This document shows, piece after piece, positions 38,289 through 46,915 of a stretch of 64,000 nucleotides of DNA (the stretch's first letter is position 1; each line of letters begins with the position of its first letter). The notes under the pieces were generated by a model. The model saw only the letters and a list, made by a program, of their open reading frames with translations. It was not told the origin of the DNA and did no database searches. A program made the position numbers and the translations under genes. The stretch comes from Gammaproteobacteria bacterium (GTDB taxonomy: Bacteria; Pseudomonadota; Gammaproteobacteria; Ga0077554; Ga007554): contig JAKFXX010000023.1 of assembly GCA_021731145.1 (NCBI GenBank), forward strand, positions 1-64,000, written 5' to 3'.

Positions 38289-39380
38289 TCATGTTGAGAT
38301 TTCCGGCTTTGCATTCACATTGAGCAGCAGTTCATACAGCGCGTCATTCAGGTAATAGTTGTCTTTGCCCAGCTTGTGTTTGGAGAGCAACCCTATGCGT
38401 ACCACTTCGTCGAGATATTTGGCTGCAGTTTTACGGGTGATTTGCAATTCGCTCGTCACAAACTCAATCTTGGTGTAGGTGTGGCGGAATAGGTTGTTAA
38501 TCAGATCCTGGCTGTAAATTTTGGGTAGTTGCTCGCGCAGTGTATGCTTGTGCCGCTGCATCAAAGCGACGATGCTAATAGTCAGCACGGTGGTTTGGCG
38601 CGAGGTTTGCTCCACGCCGTCCAGCATGTATAGTAGCCAGTCTTCCCAGTTGCCCGTGTCACGGGTAGTTTGCAGCAGGCGGTAGTAGTCGGCTTTGTTT
38701 TGGTTGATGTAGCGGCTTAAATATAGCACGGGGCTGCCCAGCAAGCCGTGTTGTACCAGATACAGGATGTTGATGATGCGGCCGGTTCTGCCGTTGCCGT
38801 CGTAGAAGGGGTGAATGCTTTCAAACTGGTGATGGATCACCGCCATTTTGGTGAGCGCGTCCCAGTCACACAAATCGTCTTCATTGATGAAGCGTTCCAG
38901 ATTAGTCATCAGGGCAATGATTTCATCGGGGTGTTGCGGCGGGGTGTATACGGTTGCGCCAGTGAGGCCGTTTTTCAACGCGGTGCCCGGCAGCTTGCGG
39001 AAGCCCGCGCGGCTCTCTTCGATGCAGGCTTGTATTTCCAGTATGTCGTTGTTGGTGAGCAGTCCCGTGCGCTTGACCTGCTCAAAACCGTTGCGCAAGG
39101 CGGTGGCGTAGTTATGCACTTCTTTCGCCGCCACGGTGACAAAGTGCCGCGCAATACTGTCGCTGCGGTATAGGTCATCGTGGGTGGTGATGATGTTTTC
39201 AATCGCGGAACTGTCTTTGGCTTCCTGCAAAGACAGCGTGCTGATGAGTATGCTTTGATTGGGAATGCCGGCAACCACGCCTTTCAGCTCCGCAAGTGCC
39301 TGATGTGCCTTGGCGAGTTTTTTCAATACCGCCTTGGTTTCGATGTCTTGGGTTAGCGGTAGTGATTTAATGGCGTTCAT
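38289..39380 (-). CDS. Fic-domain protein (class II AMP-transferase type)
   Basis: Fic enzymes usually transfer AMP to Tyr, Ser or Thr of target proteins. The 363-residue protein has an N-terminal inhibitory helix motif (S57xxxE61N62), so it is self-inhibited class II. The catalytic motif HPFYDGNGRTGR is complete at 190-201, and a C-terminal winged-helix segment follows. Everything needed for activity is present. The ATG overlaps the hsdM stop (ATGA), which ties it to the restriction operon; its role there is unknown. Confidence 0.9.
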   Translation of the reverse strand: MNAIKSLPLTQDIETKAVLKKLAKAHQALAELKGVVAGIPNQSILISTLSLQEAKDSSAIENIITTHDDLYRSDSIARHFVTVAAKEVHNYATALRNGFEQVKRTGLLTNNDILEIQACIEESRAGFRKLPGTALKNGLTGATVYTPPQHPDEIIALMTNLERFINEDDLCDWDALTKMAVIHHQFESIHPFYDGNGRTGRIINILYLVQHGLLGSPVLYLSRYINQNKADYYRLLQTTRDTGNWEDWLLYMLDGVEQTSRQTTVLTISIVALMQRHKHTLREQLPKIYSQDLINNLFRHTYTKIEFVTSELQITRKTAAKYLDEVVRIGLLSKHKLGKDNYYLNDALYELLLNVNAKPEIST

Positions 39381-41776
39381 AGCTGAAACCCCATTTTATT
39401 CAGGTGCGCTTCCACCTTCGCGCTCAGGCTTGCGACTTCACGCGTCAGTATGGGCAGCGGGGTTTCGTAGCGCTCGGCCAACTCTTTCACGCGCTGGGTA
39501 AGCGCCTGACTGATGCGGTCCATCTCGCCGTGGATGTCTCTATCCAGCGCGGCGAGCCATTTGTCGTCCACCACCAGCTCTTTGATCTCGGCCTCGGTGA
39601 GTTTGGGATAGTGGGCGTAAGACTGGGCGTCGAGGCCAGCCTCGGCGTCCTTAAGGCGCTTTTTGAGGTCGGCTTCGTCAGTGCTGAGTTTGAGCCAGCC
39701 GTTTAGTACGGCGGCTTCGTCTTTCGCGTCCTTGTCGCCCTTGATCTCCTTCAGCCGGGCGGCGACGTTGGCCTTGTTCACCTTATCGAGTTCGGAGAAC
39801 GCGCCGTCCTCGCCGCCGTGCTCTTCTTCCAGTTCGGCGAGTTTGGCGCTGATACTTTCCAGTTCGGCACTGAGTTGATCAATGGCGGCCTGCTTTTTGG
39901 CATAGTAGCGGGCGACCATGAGTGGCTTGGGGATAAGGTCACAGACCCAGCCCTTGTCTTTCTCCTTGCCCTTTTTGTCGGTCTCGATAATGCGATAGGT
40001 CTCAGCCTTCCAGCCCTCAGTTGCAATCAGATAGCAGTCGTCCTGCAGGGTCTGCGCCCAGTAGTCCATGAGGTGCTGGTAGACGTCATATTTGTCGATA
40101 AGCGGTTTGCTGGTGTAGTGCGCGAGCAGCCCTTCAGACAAGTCGGCGATAACCTCTTTGGGATGGATGCCCACAACAAGCCCTTTAAGGATTTTTGATG
40201 CCCTGTCGCGCCATGCATCAAAGTGGACGTTCATGCCGGTGATGAAGGCGGTGAACTCGGGGTGGTCGTAGATGGCGGGCTTGATGGCCGCCTTCTCCAC
40301 GGCAAGATCGAGATAGCCGGGACGGTTTGTTTTGAAGAGCGATGTTTTCAGAGTCGGGCAGATGTTCCAGTAGGGCTTGAGCGCCTCGACATCCGCCACG
40401 GGAATGCCGCCCTTCAAATGGCCTTCAATGTCTTGCAGATCTTCGGCCTGCTGGCTGTCGATATAGCGCGGCAGGTTGAGGTTAAACTCGTTCTTCTCGA
40501 TCTCTTCGACGCTGACCATGCGGGCGTACTTTGTGTCGCTGTTGTCCTGACGGGTGAAGGCATCCACGATCTTGTGGATGTCCATACTGCGCAGGCGGTT
40601 CTTGGGGCCGTCTTTGATGTAGCCCCCACTCGCGTCGATCATGAAGATGCCTTTGCGGGTATGGGCCTCCTGCTTGTCGATGACGATGATGCAGGCGGGG
40701 ATGCCGGTGCCATAGAAGAGGTTGGCGGGCAGGCCGATGATGCCTTTGATGTAGCCCTTGCGGACGAGGCTGCGGCGGATGTCGGCCTCAGCGTTGCCAC
40801 GAAACAGCACGCCATGGGGAAGGATGCAGGCGCCTTTACCGGTGGATTTCAACGAGCGGATGATATGCAGCAGATAGGCGTAGTCACCCTGCTTGGCGGG
40901 CGGCGTGCCGAAGGGCTGGAAGCGCTGGTAAGGGTCATGTAACGGTTCGATGCCGGTGCTCCAGCGCTTGTCGGAAAACGGCGGATTGGCAACAACGTAG
41001 TCGAAAGTCTTGAGCGTGTCGCCGTCCTTGAACTTGGGATCAGCCAGGGTGTTGCCCTGCATGACAAGCGCGATGGGGTTGTTGTGCAGGATCATGTTCA
41101 TGCGGGCAAGGCCGCTGGTGGCGGCATCTTTCTCCTGCCCGTAGAGCGTCACCGGCGTGCGCGCCTCGTCGGCCACTTTGAGCAGCAGCGACCCCGATCC
41201 GCAAGTTGGGTCGTACACCGTGGTCTTGGCGCTGGTCTTAGCATCGCGGATGCCGATGATCTGCGCGATGATGCGGCTGACTTCGGCGGGCGTATAGAAC
41301 TGGCCCTTGCTCTTGCCACTCTCGGTGGCGAAGTGGCGCATCAGGTATTCGTACGCATCGCCTAGGATGTCATCGCCTTCGGCGCGGTTCCTCGAAAAGT
41401 CGAGCGCGGGGTTCTCGAAGATCGCAATAAGGTTGGTGAGCTTTTCGACTTTCTCCTTCGCATCACCGAGCTTGGTAGAGTCGTTGAAGTCCGGCATATC
41501 GGACAGCTTGTTGGCGTTGGCCAGCGGGGCAATGATCTTCTTGTTGATCTGGTCGCCGATGTCGGACTTGCCCTTGAGCGCGATCATGTCCTTAAAACTG
41601 GCACCCTCGGGGATGGTGATCGGCGCATAGGGCACGCCCGCGTATTTGTCGCTGACGTATTTGATGAACAGCAGCACCAGGACGTAGTCCTTGTACTGGC
41701 TGGCATCCATGCCGCCACGCAGTTCGTCGCAGCTGGCCCAGAGAGAGGAGTAAAGTTCGGATTTCTTCAGGGCCAT
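39377..41776 (-). CDS. hsdM: Type I restriction enzyme, M (DNA adenine methyltransferase) subunit
   Basis: HsdM methylates adenine within the HsdS target. The 799-residue protein has a helical HsdM_N domain, the S-adenosylmethionine motif DPTCGSG (189-195) and the catalytic NPPF (264-267), then TGIPACIIVID. Beyond about residue 470 there is an unusually long tail with a coiled coil (about 600-690), which makes it longer than the roughly 500-residue classical HsdM. It is the first gene of the minus-strand operon. Confidence 0.95.
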   Translation of the reverse strand: MALKKSELYSSLWASCDELRGGMDASQYKDYVLVLLFIKYVSDKYAGVPYAPITIPEGASFKDMIALKGKSDIGDQINKKIIAPLANANKLSDMPDFNDSTKLGDAKEKVEKLTNLIAIFENPALDFSRNRAEGDDILGDAYEYLMRHFATESGKSKGQFYTPAEVSRIIAQIIGIRDAKTSAKTTVYDPTCGSGSLLLKVADEARTPVTLYGQEKDAATSGLARMNMILHNNPIALVMQGNTLADPKFKDGDTLKTFDYVVANPPFSDKRWSTGIEPLHDPYQRFQPFGTPPAKQGDYAYLLHIIRSLKSTGKGACILPHGVLFRGNAEADIRRSLVRKGYIKGIIGLPANLFYGTGIPACIIVIDKQEAHTRKGIFMIDASGGYIKDGPKNRLRSMDIHKIVDAFTRQDNSDTKYARMVSVEEIEKNEFNLNLPRYIDSQQAEDLQDIEGHLKGGIPVADVEALKPYWNICPTLKTSLFKTNRPGYLDLAVEKAAIKPAIYDHPEFTAFITGMNVHFDAWRDRASKILKGLVVGIHPKEVIADLSEGLLAHYTSKPLIDKYDVYQHLMDYWAQTLQDDCYLIATEGWKAETYRIIETDKKGKEKDKGWVCDLIPKPLMVARYYAKKQAAIDQLSAELESISAKLAELEEEHGGEDGAFSELDKVNKANVAARLKEIKGDKDAKDEAAVLNGWLKLSTDEADLKKRLKDAEAGLDAQSYAHYPKLTEAEIKELVVDDKWLAALDRDIHGEMDRISQALTQRVKELAERYETPLPILTREVASLSAKVEAHLNKMGFQL

Positions 41777-42157: not shown

Positions 42158-42973
42158 GTGTCAAAAAACAACAATGATGAGCCCATCGTAAAAATCCGCG
42201 GCCTGCGTTTCGCGCATGGCGCCCGCGTGATTTTTGATGGTGTGGACATCGACATCCCGCGCGGCAAGATTACCTCTATCATGGGCCCCAGCGGCACCGG
42301 CAAGACCACACTGCTGAAACTGATTGGCGGTCAGTTGCAGCCCACTGCGGGCAGCGTCGTGGTGGATGGCGAGGATGTCAACAAAATTTCCCGTGATGCG
42401 CTGTTCCGCTTGCGCAAGCGCATGAGCCTGCTGTTCCAGACCGGCGCGCTGTTTACCGATCTCACCGTATTTGAAAACGTGGCCTTTCCGCTGCGCGAAC
42501 ACACCCGTTTGCCCGAGTCGATACTGCGCGACCTGGTGCTGATGAAGCTGCAGGCCGTAGGGCTGCGCGGCGCGCGCGATTTGCTGCCTGCCGAATTGTC
42601 GGGAGGTATGGCGCGGCGCGTGGCGCTGGCCAGGGCAATCGCGCTGGATCCGATGATGATCATGTACGATGAACCCTTCACCGGCCAGGATCCGATCACT
42701 GTGGGCGTGATCATGCAGCTTATCCGTATGCTCAACGACACCTTGGGGCTGACCAGCATCATAGTCTCTCACGATGTGCATGAGTTGACGATGATCTGTG
42801 ACCATATGTATATGATCTCGGGCGGCAAGGTGATGGGACACGGGACGCCCGATGATATGGCCCATTCGGAATCAGGCTGGGTACGGCAGTTTATGGCCGG
42901 ATTGCCGGATGGTCCGGTGCCGTTCCACTATCCTGCGCCGGATTACGCCGACGATCTGCTGGCTGGGGCGTAA
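42158..42973 (+). CDS. mlaF: Phospholipid ABC transporter ATP-binding protein MlaF
   Basis: MlaF powers the MlaFEDB complex that moves phospholipids between the inner membrane and MlaC to keep outer-membrane asymmetry. The 271-residue ATPase has Walker [10 protein letters not shown] (about 43-51), the signature [19 protein letters not shown], Walker B MIMYDEP and the switch His in [10 protein letters not shown]. The start is GTG. It is the first gene of mlaF-mlaE-mlaD-tolC-like-mlaC-mlaB-ibaG-murA. Confidence 0.95.
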
Positions 42974-43002: not shown

Positions 43003-43794
43003 ATGCGCTGCATGATGGGATGGTTGCAGCGGCTGGGAAGCACCAGTCTGAGTGTTTTTGAGCGATTGGGGCGTGGCAATCTGTTCCTGTTGCGCGTGCT
43101 GGCGGCCCTGCCCAGCCTGGTGGCGCGACCGGGGCTGGTGATTGCCCAGCTTTATTCGGTGGGCGTGTTGTCGATGATGCTGATTGTCATCTCCGGACTC
43201 AACGTGGGCATGGTACTGGGCCTGCAAGGATATAACACCCTGGTGGATTTTGGCTCCGAGGAATCTTTGGGACAACTGGTTGCCCTGTCACTGGTGCGTG
43301 AACTGGGGCCGGTTGTGGCGGCGTTGCTGTTTGCCGGGCGCGCCGGTTCAGCATTGACCGCCGAGATCGGGCTGATGAAGGCCACTGAACAGCTCTCCGG
43401 GATGGAGATGATGGCGGTCGATCCGCTCAAGCGTGTGATTGCGCCCCGCTTTGTTGCCGGCATTATTTCCATGCCGCTGCTGGCCGCGATGTTCAGTGCG
43501 GTGGGGGTGCTGGGTGGCTTTTTTGTCGGTGTCGGCCTGCTCGGCGTGGACAGCGGCGCGTTCTGGTCGCAAATGCAGTCCAAGGTCGATCTGTATGACG
43601 ATATCCTTAACGGCGTGATCAAGAGCGTTGTATTCGGATGTGTGGCGGCCTGGATCGCGGTTTTTGAAGGTTACGACGCAGTTCCGAATACGGAGGGCGT
43701 GAGCCGCGCCACCACGCGCACCGTCGTGCATACGGCGTTTGCCGTGCTGGGGCTGGATTTCATATTAACCGCGCTGATGTTTGGGGACGAATAA
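43003..43794 (+). CDS. mlaE: Phospholipid ABC transporter permease MlaE
   Basis: This is the membrane subunit of the Mla complex. The 263-residue protein has five or six hydrophobic segments and the family signature [41 protein letters not shown]. The gap from mlaF is 29 bp. Further in-frame ATGs at 43012 and 43015 are possible starts. mlaD begins just after the stop. Confidence 0.95.
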
Positions 43795-43795
43795 G

Positions 43796-44290
43796 ATGAT
43801 GCAGAAAAGAACCATGGAGATCGGAGTGGGCGTGTTCGTTGCGGCGGGCATTGCCGCATTGATTATGCTGGCCATGAAGGTCAGCAACCTGGCCGCTTTT
43901 ACCAACCAGCAGGGCTACGAAGTCACCGCCCGGTTTGACAATATTGGCGGGCTCAAGGAGCGCTCGGCGGTAACGGTGGCGGGTGTGCGCATTGGCCGGG
44001 TGAAATCGATCGTATTTGACGACAAGGACTACGAGGCCGTGGTCACAATGAATATCGAATCCCAGCATGATCGGCTGCCCGCCGACACCTCGGCAAGCAT
44101 TTTGACGGCGGGGTTACTGGGCGAGCAGTATGTGGCATTGGAGCCGGGTGGCGACGAAGCCTTTCTGAAGCCGGGTGGAGACATCAAGCTTACCCAGTCG
44201 GCGATCATTCTGGAGAAGATGGTGGGCCAGTTCTTGTTTGACAAGGCTGCCGGTGGTGATGGGAAAAAAGAAGAAGGGGCCGCGCCGTGA
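43796..44290 (+). CDS. mlaD: MCE-domain lipid-binding protein MlaD
   Basis: MlaD is anchored in the inner membrane and forms the hexameric lipid channel on top of MlaE. The 164-residue protein has one N-terminal membrane segment (about residues 7-28) and an MCE domain (GYEVTARFDNIGGLKERSAVTVAGVRIGRV and TAGLLGEQYVALEPGG). Its start follows the mlaE stop by one base, and its stop overlaps the next start (TGATG). Confidence 0.94.
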   Translation: MMQKRTMEIGVGVFVAAGIAALIMLAMKVSNLAAFTNQQGYEVTARFDNIGGLKERSAVTVAGVRIGRVKSIVFDDKDYEAVVTMNIESQHDRLPADTSASILTAGLLGEQYVALEPGGDEAFLKPGGDIKLTQSAIILEKMVGQFLFDKAAGGDGKKEEGAAP

Positions 44291-45651
44291 TGCGGATCGG
44301 ATTGGTGGGACTGGTGGGGTTGCTGGCCTGCGTGAATGCGGCTGCGGAAACCGTGCCGCTGACACTGGAGCAGGCGACAGCACGCGCCTTGCAGACAGAT
44401 CCGCGCGTCACTGAGCGCCAGCGCCTCGTCGAGGCTGCACAAGCACTGCTTACCGAAGTCAACGGCAACGAGGGCTGGCGGTTTGACGCGAACACCTTTC
44501 TCGCCGTGTCACCGGGAGCTAATGGCAACATATTCAAGGGCGGCGACTGCGCCCCCGGCAGCTGCACCCTGCGTTCCGACAGGTATGAGTTGAGCAATGG
44601 CTTTTCGCCCTGGGTCAACTTGCAGATGACCATTCTCAAACCCCTATACACCTTTGGCAAGATCGAAAATTACGCAGCCGCCGCACGCGCCAATATCGAA
44701 GTGAAGGACAATGATGTGCGCCTGCAACGCGCCACGACGATCTTGGATGTGAAGCGCGCCTACTATGGTTGCCTGGCTGCGCGTGACGCACGGTTGTTTC
44801 TGGTGGATGTGAAGGAGCGCGTTGCTAAGACCATCGACCTCGCCAAGAAATGGCTTGATGACGGGCAGGGCGATATCAGACAAGCCGACGTATTCGCGCT
44901 CCAGACTGCGCATTCACTGGTGGGAAGATACATAGCCCAGACCGAAGGCATGGAGAAAATCGCCATCGACGGATTGAAGGTGCTCACCGGCATCGCCGCG
45001 CAAGATGAAGTTCAGCTTGCTGAAGATGCGTTGGTGCCGGTGCCGCTGCCTGAAGTCAGGTTGCCCGAGCTCCAGAACCAGGCGCTGGCCAATCGGCCTG
45101 AGATGAAGCAGGTGGATGCGGGGTTGCGTGCCCGCCGCTCCCTGGTGGAGGCGCGCCAGGCTGACAAATTACCAAACGTGTATGCCGGCGTGGCGGGGGT
45201 TCTTTCTTATTCCCCCAACCGCGACAATCTCAAAAACCCGTATATCTACGACCCCTTCAATACCGCCGGTTTGACGCCGATGGTCGGCCTCCAGTGGGCT
45301 TGGCAACCGCAGGCGCAGGATGCAAAAGTTGCGCAAGAGCAAGCGGAGTTGAATGCGTTGCTCGCCAAGTCGGACTTTGCCCGGCGCGGCATCCCATTCC
45401 AGGTGGCGGAACAGTACCACCAGATGCAGGCGGATTTTACGGCGGTGCGGGAGCTGAGCGAAGGCAGCCGCAATGCACGGCGCTGGATGATCGGGCGTTA
45501 TGCGGACTTTGAGGCGGGCCTTGAAACAGCGGATCGGGTTATCACTGCCTTCCAGGGATACGTGCTGGCACAGACGGACTATATCAAGACAGTTTATGAT
45601 TACAACATGCATGTAGCACAATTGCGAAATGTAACCGGAGCGGACGAATGA
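44290..45651 (+). CDS. TolC-family outer-membrane channel protein within the mla operon
   Basis: TolC-family proteins form trimeric outer-membrane channels with a long periplasmic alpha-barrel. The 453-residue protein has a signal peptide (cleavage likely after the AAA near residue 20) and repeated helical hairpins with the family pattern (LTLEQATARALQTDPRV; WVNLQMTILKPLYTFGKIENYAAAARANI; LQNQALANRPEMKQVDAGLRARRSLVEARQADKLPNVYA). The gene is coupled at both ends: its ATG overlaps the mlaD stop and its stop overlaps mlaC. The E. coli mla operon has no such gene. Confidence 0.88.
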   Translation: MRIGLVGLVGLLACVNAAAETVPLTLEQATARALQTDPRVTERQRLVEAAQALLTEVNGNEGWRFDANTFLAVSPGANGNIFKGGDCAPGSCTLRSDRYELSNGFSPWVNLQMTILKPLYTFGKIENYAAAARANIEVKDNDVRLQRATTILDVKRAYYGCLAARDARLFLVDVKERVAKTIDLAKKWLDDGQGDIRQADVFALQTAHSLVGRYIAQTEGMEKIAIDGLKVLTGIAAQDEVQLAEDALVPVPLPEVRLPELQNQALANRPEMKQVDAGLRARRSLVEARQADKLPNVYAGVAGVLSYSPNRDNLKNPYIYDPFNTAGLTPMVGLQWAWQPQAQDAKVAQEQAELNALLAKSDFARRGIPFQVAEQYHQMQADFTAVRELSEGSRNARRWMIGRYADFEAGLETADRVITAFQGYVLAQTDYIKTVYDYNMHVAQLRNVTGADE

Positions 45652-46277
45652 AAAAGTTGATAGTTGCGATGCTGTTGCTGTGTATGGCGGGGTTTGCGCC
45701 AGCGGGCGTAAGCGCCAACGTGCCTCAGCTGCCGCAGGATATGATAAAGCAGACAGCCGACAGCATGCTTGCCAAGCTCAAAGACGAGCGGGCGGTGATA
45801 CGTAAGGATCCAGGCCGGATTTACGACTTGGTCAGCAGCATCGTTCTGCCGCACTTCGACTTTGAGCGCATGTCTTCATGGGTGCTGGGCAAGTATTGGC
45901 GCACCGCCACCCCCGCGCAGAAGAAACGCTTCAGCGAGGAGTTCCGCAATCTGCTGGTGCGTACCTATGCCACCTCTCTGACCGAATATACGGATCGCAA
46001 AATTAACTACCTGCCGTTTCGCGCCGACGCCAATGATACCGACGTGACGGTGCATACCGAGGTGGCACAACCGGGCGCCGCGCCGATCCCTATCGATTAC
46101 AGGCTTGCCCTCACTAATGACGAATGGAAGGTTTACGACGTGGCTATCGACAACGTCAGCCTGGTGACAAACTACCGCACGACGTTTTCCAATCAGATCC
46201 GGCAAGAAGGGCTGGACAAGCTTATCGAAAAACTCGCTGCGCGCAACGAGAAATCCAGCGCATCTTCCGCCAAATGA
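45648..46277 (+). CDS. mlaC: Periplasmic phospholipid-binding protein MlaC
   Basis: MlaC ferries phospholipid across the periplasm between the MlaA-OmpC complex and MlaFEDB. The 209-residue protein has a signal peptide (about 1-22) and the Tol-Tol-Ttg2 domain pattern (SSIVLPHFDFERMSSWVLGKYWR, LLVRTYATSL, and VTNYRTTFSNQIRQEGLDKLIEKL). It overlaps its neighbours by 4 bases on both sides. mlaA is not in the window. Confidence 0.94.
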   Translation: MKKLIVAMLLLCMAGFAPAGVSANVPQLPQDMIKQTADSMLAKLKDERAVIRKDPGRIYDLVSSIVLPHFDFERMSSWVLGKYWRTATPAQKKRFSEEFRNLLVRTYATSLTEYTDRKINYLPFRADANDTDVTVHTEVAQPGAAPIPIDYRLALTNDEWKVYDVAIDNVSLVTNYRTTFSNQIRQEGLDKLIEKLAARNEKSSASSAK

Positions 46278-46573
46278 GTGATGTTGAGATCAAACCGTTA
46301 GGCGATGGCGGCTTTCTGCTGTCCGGCGCGCTGACCTTCGATACCGTGCCCGCCCTGTGGCGTCAAAGCGCCGCGCAGTTTAACAATGCTGATGCGCTTA
46401 TGCTGGACTTACAGGGGATTACTCATACCGACAGCGCCGGTCTTGCCCTGCTCATAGAGTGGATGCGTACCGCCCGCAGCCGGAACAAAACGATTGCCTT
46501 CGGAAATATCCCCCCCCAAATGCTGGCTATCGCCAAGGTCAGTGGCGTGGAGCAGATTCTTCCGCTTTTGTAG
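46274..46573 (+). CDS. mlaB: STAS-domain protein MlaB
   Basis: MlaB binds MlaF and stabilises the transporter. The 99-residue protein is a single STAS domain with ALMLDLQGITHTDSAGLALLIEWM, where the Asp-Ser-Ala loop is the expected functional site. The ATG at 46274 overlaps the mlaC stop (ATGA). Confidence 0.92.
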   Translation: MSDVEIKPLGDGGFLLSGALTFDTVPALWRQSAAQFNNADALMLDLQGITHTDSAGLALLIEWMRTARSRNKTIAFGNIPPQMLAIAKVSGVEQILPLL

Positions 46574-46669: not shown

Positions 46670-46915
46670 ATGCAGGCAGAGGATATCAAACATCTTATTG
46701 AGGCGGGATTGCCCGATTGCCAGGCACAGATTAAGGGTGATGACGGCGTCCACTTCGAGGCGGTTATCGTTTCGGGCGCCTTCGAGGGCAAGGGCATGCT
46801 TGCCCAGCATAAAATGGTCTATGCCACGCTGGGTGACCTCATGCATTCGGCGATACATGCCTTATCCATGCGCACGTATACTCCACAGGAGTGGGAAAAG
46901 ATACGCGCGCAGTGA
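46670..46915 (+). CDS. ibaG: BolA-family protein IbaG
   Basis: IbaG (YrbA) is an acid-stress BolA homologue that pairs with monothiol glutaredoxins in iron-sulfur handling. The 81-residue protein has the BolA pattern HFEAVIVSGAFEGKGMLAQHKMVYATLG. The ATG at 46670 follows a GAGG; a longer frame from 46643 adds unconserved residues. The order mlaB-ibaG-murA is the same as in E. coli. Confidence 0.93.
   Translation: MQAEDIKHLIEAGLPDCQAQIKGDDGVHFEAVIVSGAFEGKGMLAQHKMVYATLGDLMHSAIHALSMRTYTPQEWEKIRAQ

Follow-up and report, generated by a model that had tools for sequence, protein, structure and literature searches.

A TolC-family channel gene between mlaD and mlaC in proteobacteria: a candidate outer-membrane partner of MlaC in place of MlaA

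Introduction

In E. coli the Mla system consists of MlaFEDB, MlaC and MlaA/OmpC, with the genes in the order mlaF, mlaE, mlaD, mlaC, mlaB and with a short form of MlaD. The outer-membrane component, the lipoprotein MlaA, can also be encoded within the mla operon itself, as in Neisseria (PMC6424457). How lipid is handed over between MlaC and the outer membrane, and in which direction Mla transports it, are both still under debate.

A TolC-family gene beside mlaEFD is already known from the Negativicutes, where the mlaEFD-tolC-tamB arrangement of Veillonella and its relatives has tolC right after mlaD and no MlaA (PMC10665443). As described there, this system has no MlaC, a long MlaD whose C-terminus is predicted to form a beta-barrel, and tamB as the next gene. 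The same paper places MlaABC mostly in Proteobacteria, and its relevant passages do not discuss TolC in proteobacterial mla operons. Likewise, the relevant passages of an earlier survey of MCE gene neighbourhoods (Isom 2017; PMC5561183) mention MlaA in the operon and no TolC there.

The locus described here lies in a 64,000-nucleotide stretch (the window) of a gammaproteobacterial genome (GCA_021731145.1, contig JAKFXX010000023.1, positions 1 to 64,000). It shares the order of the five mla genes and the short MlaD with E. coli, but holds a tolC-family gene between mlaD and mlaC in a genome without MlaA. Like the operons that contain mlaA it encodes an outer-membrane component, which here is a TolC-type channel rather than a lipoprotein, and unlike the Negativicutes system it has MlaC and a short MlaD of 164 residues. 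We refer to the channel protein as Mla-TolC. We found no description of the mlaD-tolC-mlaC form in open-access papers; it may have been noticed earlier elsewhere.

Results

The preliminary description of the window had placed a TolC-family gene between mlaD and mlaC, joined to both by overlapping stop and start codons, and its coordinates are exact (Table 1). The upstream junction reads TGATG, the mlaD stop TGA (44288-44290) sharing a base with the tolC start ATG at 44290; the downstream junction reads ATGA, with the mlaC start ATG at 45648 and the tolC stop TGA at 45649-45651. The tolC open reading frame is intact. All five Mla components (MlaF, MlaE, MlaD, MlaC and MlaB) are co-encoded according to Pfam, with only MlaD and MlaE passing the strict NCBIfam cut-offs. 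The family assignments had been called firm, and Pfam agrees with each of them, the TolC fold being borne out by a structural model and its PDB matches. Within the locus, Pfam found no adaptor or pump gene adjoining tolC, whose neighbours are mlaFED, mlaC, mlaB and bolA. The flank with the ibaG/bolA-like gene is common to relatives with and without tolC. As a separate observation, mlaB holds a run of eight C at 46510-46517, a possible slippage site.

Table 1. Genes of the mla locus and its downstream flank, in window coordinates
Feature	Coordinates	Strand	Basis
mlaF, ABC ATPase	42158..42973	+	ABC_tran 1.8e-30; top NCBIfam match MlaF PRK11831, 395.9 bits (below the cut-off of 441)
mlaE, permease	43003..43794	+	Pfam MlaE 5.7e-72; NF033619 410.4 bits (above the cut-off of 315)
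mlaD, short MCE protein, 164 aa	43796..44290	+	Pfam MlaD 2.5e-24; TIGR04430 190.6 bits (above the cut-off of 135)
Mla-TolC, TolC-family outer-membrane channel, 453 aa	44290..45651	+	Pfam OEP 3.5e-27; AlphaFold2 model and PDB matches; own clade; altered tips
mlaC, periplasmic lipid shuttle	45648..46277	+	Pfam MlaC 4.8e-62; under strict NCBIfam cut-offs
mlaB, STAS protein	46274..46573	+	STAS_2 1.5e-18; NCBIfam mlaB_1 under cut-off
ibaG/bolA-like gene, conserved operon flank outside the proposed machine	46670..46915	+	Pfam BolA 3e-18
murA, histidine genes next	from 46995	same strand as operon	

The Pfam OEP match of Mla-TolC comprises two repeats, and a single-chain AlphaFold2 model (mean pLDDT 88.5, pTM 0.79) has TolC helices of full length. 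Every strong PDB match of this model is a TolC-family channel, and comparison with the solved structures of E. coli TolC, OprM and CusC gives Z values of 27-29 over about 390 residues, at roughly 15% sequence identity. A phmmer search of solved structures with the plain sequence returned no significant match to Mla-TolC; the fold assignment therefore rests on the model. Read by eye, the N-terminus has the form of a signal peptide, a hydrophobic stretch followed by AAAE.

The genome of the window encodes about eight further TolC-family proteins, a canonical TolC among them. In a tree of Mla-TolCs, these eight other proteins, 20 background TolCs, E. coli TolC and CusC, the 27 rows of Mla-TolC fall into a single clade on a long stem (SH-aLRT 100), and the genome's canonical TolC (L001) groups with the E. 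coli TolC set, away from that clade. Clustering with a multidrug or type I secretion TolC, which would have spoken for an ordinary channel, is thus not what the tree gives: Mla-TolC falls outside. The Val-Gly-Leu/Thr tip element of TolC contacts the AcrA adaptor (PMC5404916). Canonical TolCs have VGL (15/16) or VGM (1/16) at the first periplasmic tip and VGT at the second (16/16), whereas in Mla-TolC the first tip is variable and mostly acidic and the second is of the AGL type, with VG in none of 67 members; these tip readings depend on the alignment. The tip differs, which is not in itself proof of a differing function; the absent VGL tip was demoted as proof against efflux, since CusC and several of the genome's own paralogues also lack it. 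Two other candidate features were dropped. One was a lipobox, which reads LLAC in the window, since just 22 of 67 members have a cysteine anywhere near the N-terminus; the other was a conserved extracellular disulfide (C87, C92), both cysteines being present in 15 of 67.

In a protein search of 56 relatives, orthologues showed 47-94% identity and background TolCs 19-31%, with a clear gap between them. A profile search found Mla-TolC in 44 of 369 sampled Gammaproteobacteria genomes, across about 21 family codes, as well as in three genomes of other Pseudomonadota classes with identical gene order. Moreover, a scan of GTDB contigs yielded 80 Mla-TolC loci, all from genomes other than that of the window, so that the adjacency survey proposed at the outset finds an arrangement that is not rare. 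Carriers include many sulfur-oxidising and related proteobacteria, such as Halothiobacillus, Guyparkeria, Sulfurimicrobium, Sulfuriferula, Thiobacillus and records labelled Chromatiales. An additional ABC-transporter ATPase gene lies between mlaB or mlaC and ibaG in many relatives (L065, L070, L073, L168 and others) and is absent in the window.

Gene order is strictly kept in these loci. mlaD lies upstream of tolC in 75 of the 80, two of the remainder being cut by a contig end and three (L067, L093 and L111) having no upstream mlaD, and mlaC follows tolC in 79, the last contig (L074) ending first. A start codon allowing a -4 or -1 overlap is present at 45 of 75 mlaD-tolC junctions and 61 of 79 tolC-mlaC junctions; counted by such possible starts, these overlaps are the most frequent spacing at both ends of tolC. 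Repetition in 80 loci from other genomes puts this order far beyond chance and marks mlaD-tolC-mlaC as a conserved system rather than a random insertion. In the three exceptions (L067 5875-7263, L111 5929-7350 and L093 from 3529) tolC and mlaC remain paired although mlaFED does not precede them. The L067 and L111 genomes gave no MlaE match, and the L093 genome encodes MlaE on a different contig; all three are draft bins and may be incomplete.

We then compared the distribution of Mla-TolC with that of MlaA, detected as Pfam PF04333. The genome of the window, which is 99.99% complete, has no PF04333 match. Among the 369 genomes of the class sample, 286 have MlaA: 4 hold both proteins, 40 Mla-TolC only, 282 MlaA only and 43 neither. 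MlaA therefore occurs in 282 of the 325 genomes that lack Mla-TolC but in just 4 of the 44 that carry it (Fisher p 1e-25, before correction for kinship); another 21 carriers include 2 with MlaA. Six carriers hold both genes (G089, G107, G134, G202, G753 and G761). Conversely, 43 of the 83 genomes without MlaA also lack Mla-TolC; of 12 checked, 3 have no MlaE at all, but others keep it. MlaE is present, with MlaA and Mla-TolC both absent, in G098, G100, G123, G127, G241, G316 and G337. A genome from the same family as that of the window (G004) has none of Mla-TolC, MlaA and MlaE, the whole operon having been lost or not assembled.

Kinship was corrected for on an rpoB tree of 66 genomes, because an MlaE tree, with 14 tolC swaps on the best tree and just 3 of them forced, was too weakly supported for swaps to be counted. 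The rpoB frames were chosen by homology and pairs were drawn on the best tree by a purpose-written script, the expected direction being a Mla-TolC genome without MlaA and a partner with it. Thirteen independent pairs differ in Mla-TolC, 10-12 of them in the expected direction and at most one reversed (median p ~0.001). On well-supported branches alone there are nine pairs, with a mean of 7.7 in the expected direction and no reversal (p 0.008). Five of the comparison genomes were in the tree through an inspection of their MlaA region, which introduces a slight bias, the base rate being 87%. Mla-TolC and MlaA are close to mutually exclusive.

The position between mlaD and mlaC is itself used by mlaA in some relatives without this TolC (L168 and L218, likewise L163 and L175). 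In L168 the mlaD-mlaA-mlaC stretch is surrounded by mlaF, mlaE, ibaG and murA. L175 (4497-7969) is a second, divergent mla operon of G089, with the order mlaE-mlaD-mlaA-mlaC and a mlaF-like gene on the other strand; this carrier has a TolC-type mla operon and keeps MlaA in the separate second one. In many other relatives mlaD is directly followed by mlaC between identical flanks, with MlaA elsewhere in the genome. Operons with and without tolC share their flanks and have similar MlaE, so it is the slot that differs and not the whole neighbourhood.

Lastly, partial correlations of TolC distances were highest with MlaC (0.37), followed by MlaD (0.28), MlaE (0.22) and MlaF (-0.05). The TolC-MlaC value is modest, and similar evolutionary rates may be its cause.

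Discussion

The near-exclusion of MlaA, together with an operon slot that the two genes share in some relatives, leads us to read Mla-TolC as a replacement. On balance, we think it somewhat more likely than not that Mla-TolC is an outer-membrane component dedicated to the Mla system and substitutes for the lipoprotein MlaA, which would alter the pathway's contact with the outer membrane. Support comes from the TolC fold, a conserved gene order in which the ends overlap, a clade of its own, the near-exclusion of MlaA and the use of mlaA's slot in some relatives. Counted against it are the six carriers with both genes and the 43 of 83 MlaA-less genomes without Mla-TolC; moreover, a TolC barrel would seem to offer no obvious entry for lipid from the outer leaflet.

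In the proposed model, MlaFEDB would sit in the inner membrane and a TolC-like channel, presumably trimeric, in the outer membrane, with MlaC as the periplasmic shuttle. MlaC might dock at the periplasmic tip of the channel or at its flank, and Mla-TolC rather than MlaA-OmpC would be the site where MlaC and the outer membrane exchange lipid. The cargo would presumably be glycerophospholipid, and transport could run in either direction. A broader version, to which we give somewhat less than even credence, is that a TolC-type channel repeatedly took over the job of MlaA in proteobacteria, with a TolC trimer offering its interior or its surface as the route for lipid or other hydrophobic cargo between MlaC and the outer membrane. 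MlaC is favoured over MlaD as the partner, because the tolC-mlaC pair persists in the three loci with no mlaFED upstream (in draft bins), because TolC distances track MlaC best, and because the short form of MlaD would be unlikely to reach the channel.

The preliminary description had suggested that the channel works with MlaD and MlaC, perhaps as a periplasm-spanning tunnel next to the MlaC shuttle. The first part is well supported by the order, the overlapping ends, the own clade and the near-exclusion of MlaA. An additional tunnel is not the best reading, given mlaA's slot in some relatives, the carriers without MlaA, the tolC-mlaC pairs in three loci and the short MlaD. Close to that suggestion is a continuous conduit, in which the MlaD hexamer and TolC, joined directly or via MlaC, would form a tripartite pump for lipid or other hydrophobic cargo. 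The adjacency and coupling of mlaD and tolC, the same adjacency as described for Negativicutes (PMC10665443) and the full-length helices of the TolC model would all suit such a pump, yet a 164-residue MlaD with a single MCE domain would hardly span the distance, the locus has no adaptor gene, the channel lacks the canonical adaptor-docking tips and tolC stays with mlaC where mlaFED is not upstream. We regard the conduit as unlikely.

Slightly less likely still is shared ancestry with no shared job, whereby an old tolC-bearing mla operon came by descent, or by transfer as a unit, to lineages in which MlaA was lost for other reasons, such as a different outer membrane, the two proteins not being equivalent. 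Carriers do cluster by family, about half of the MlaA-less genomes (43/83) are without Mla-TolC, and the MlaE tree is too weak for tracing swaps. However, the rpoB tree shows 13 or more changes in the Mla-TolC state, with the contrasts pointing one way, and between common flanks and beside similar MlaE it is the slot that differs. That Mla-TolC is an ordinary efflux or secretion channel, placed in the operon for co-expression only, is very improbable: its family and fold would allow it and the genome has other transporters able to use it, but its position is strictly conserved across families, its clade is separate, about eight other TolC-family proteins including canonical TolC are at hand, no adaptor or pump gene adjoins it, and exclusion of MlaA is not expected from a passenger gene.

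If Mla-TolC does replace MlaA, lipid transport joins efflux and secretion among the roles of the TolC fold, and Mla has a second solution at its outer-membrane end. What MlaC needs at the outer membrane could apparently be supplied by a TolC-type protein, which would explain the many MlaFEDCB genomes that seem to have no outer-membrane component. A widespread MlaA-less form of Mla with a channel of known fold also makes for a clean comparison.

Elsewhere in the window, on the minus strand at 38289-41776, two genes overlap, one bearing a Fic-type motif (HPFYDGNGRTGR) and the other an N6-methylase motif (NPPF), a pairing that, as read by eye in the translations, resembles type I restriction-modification loci.
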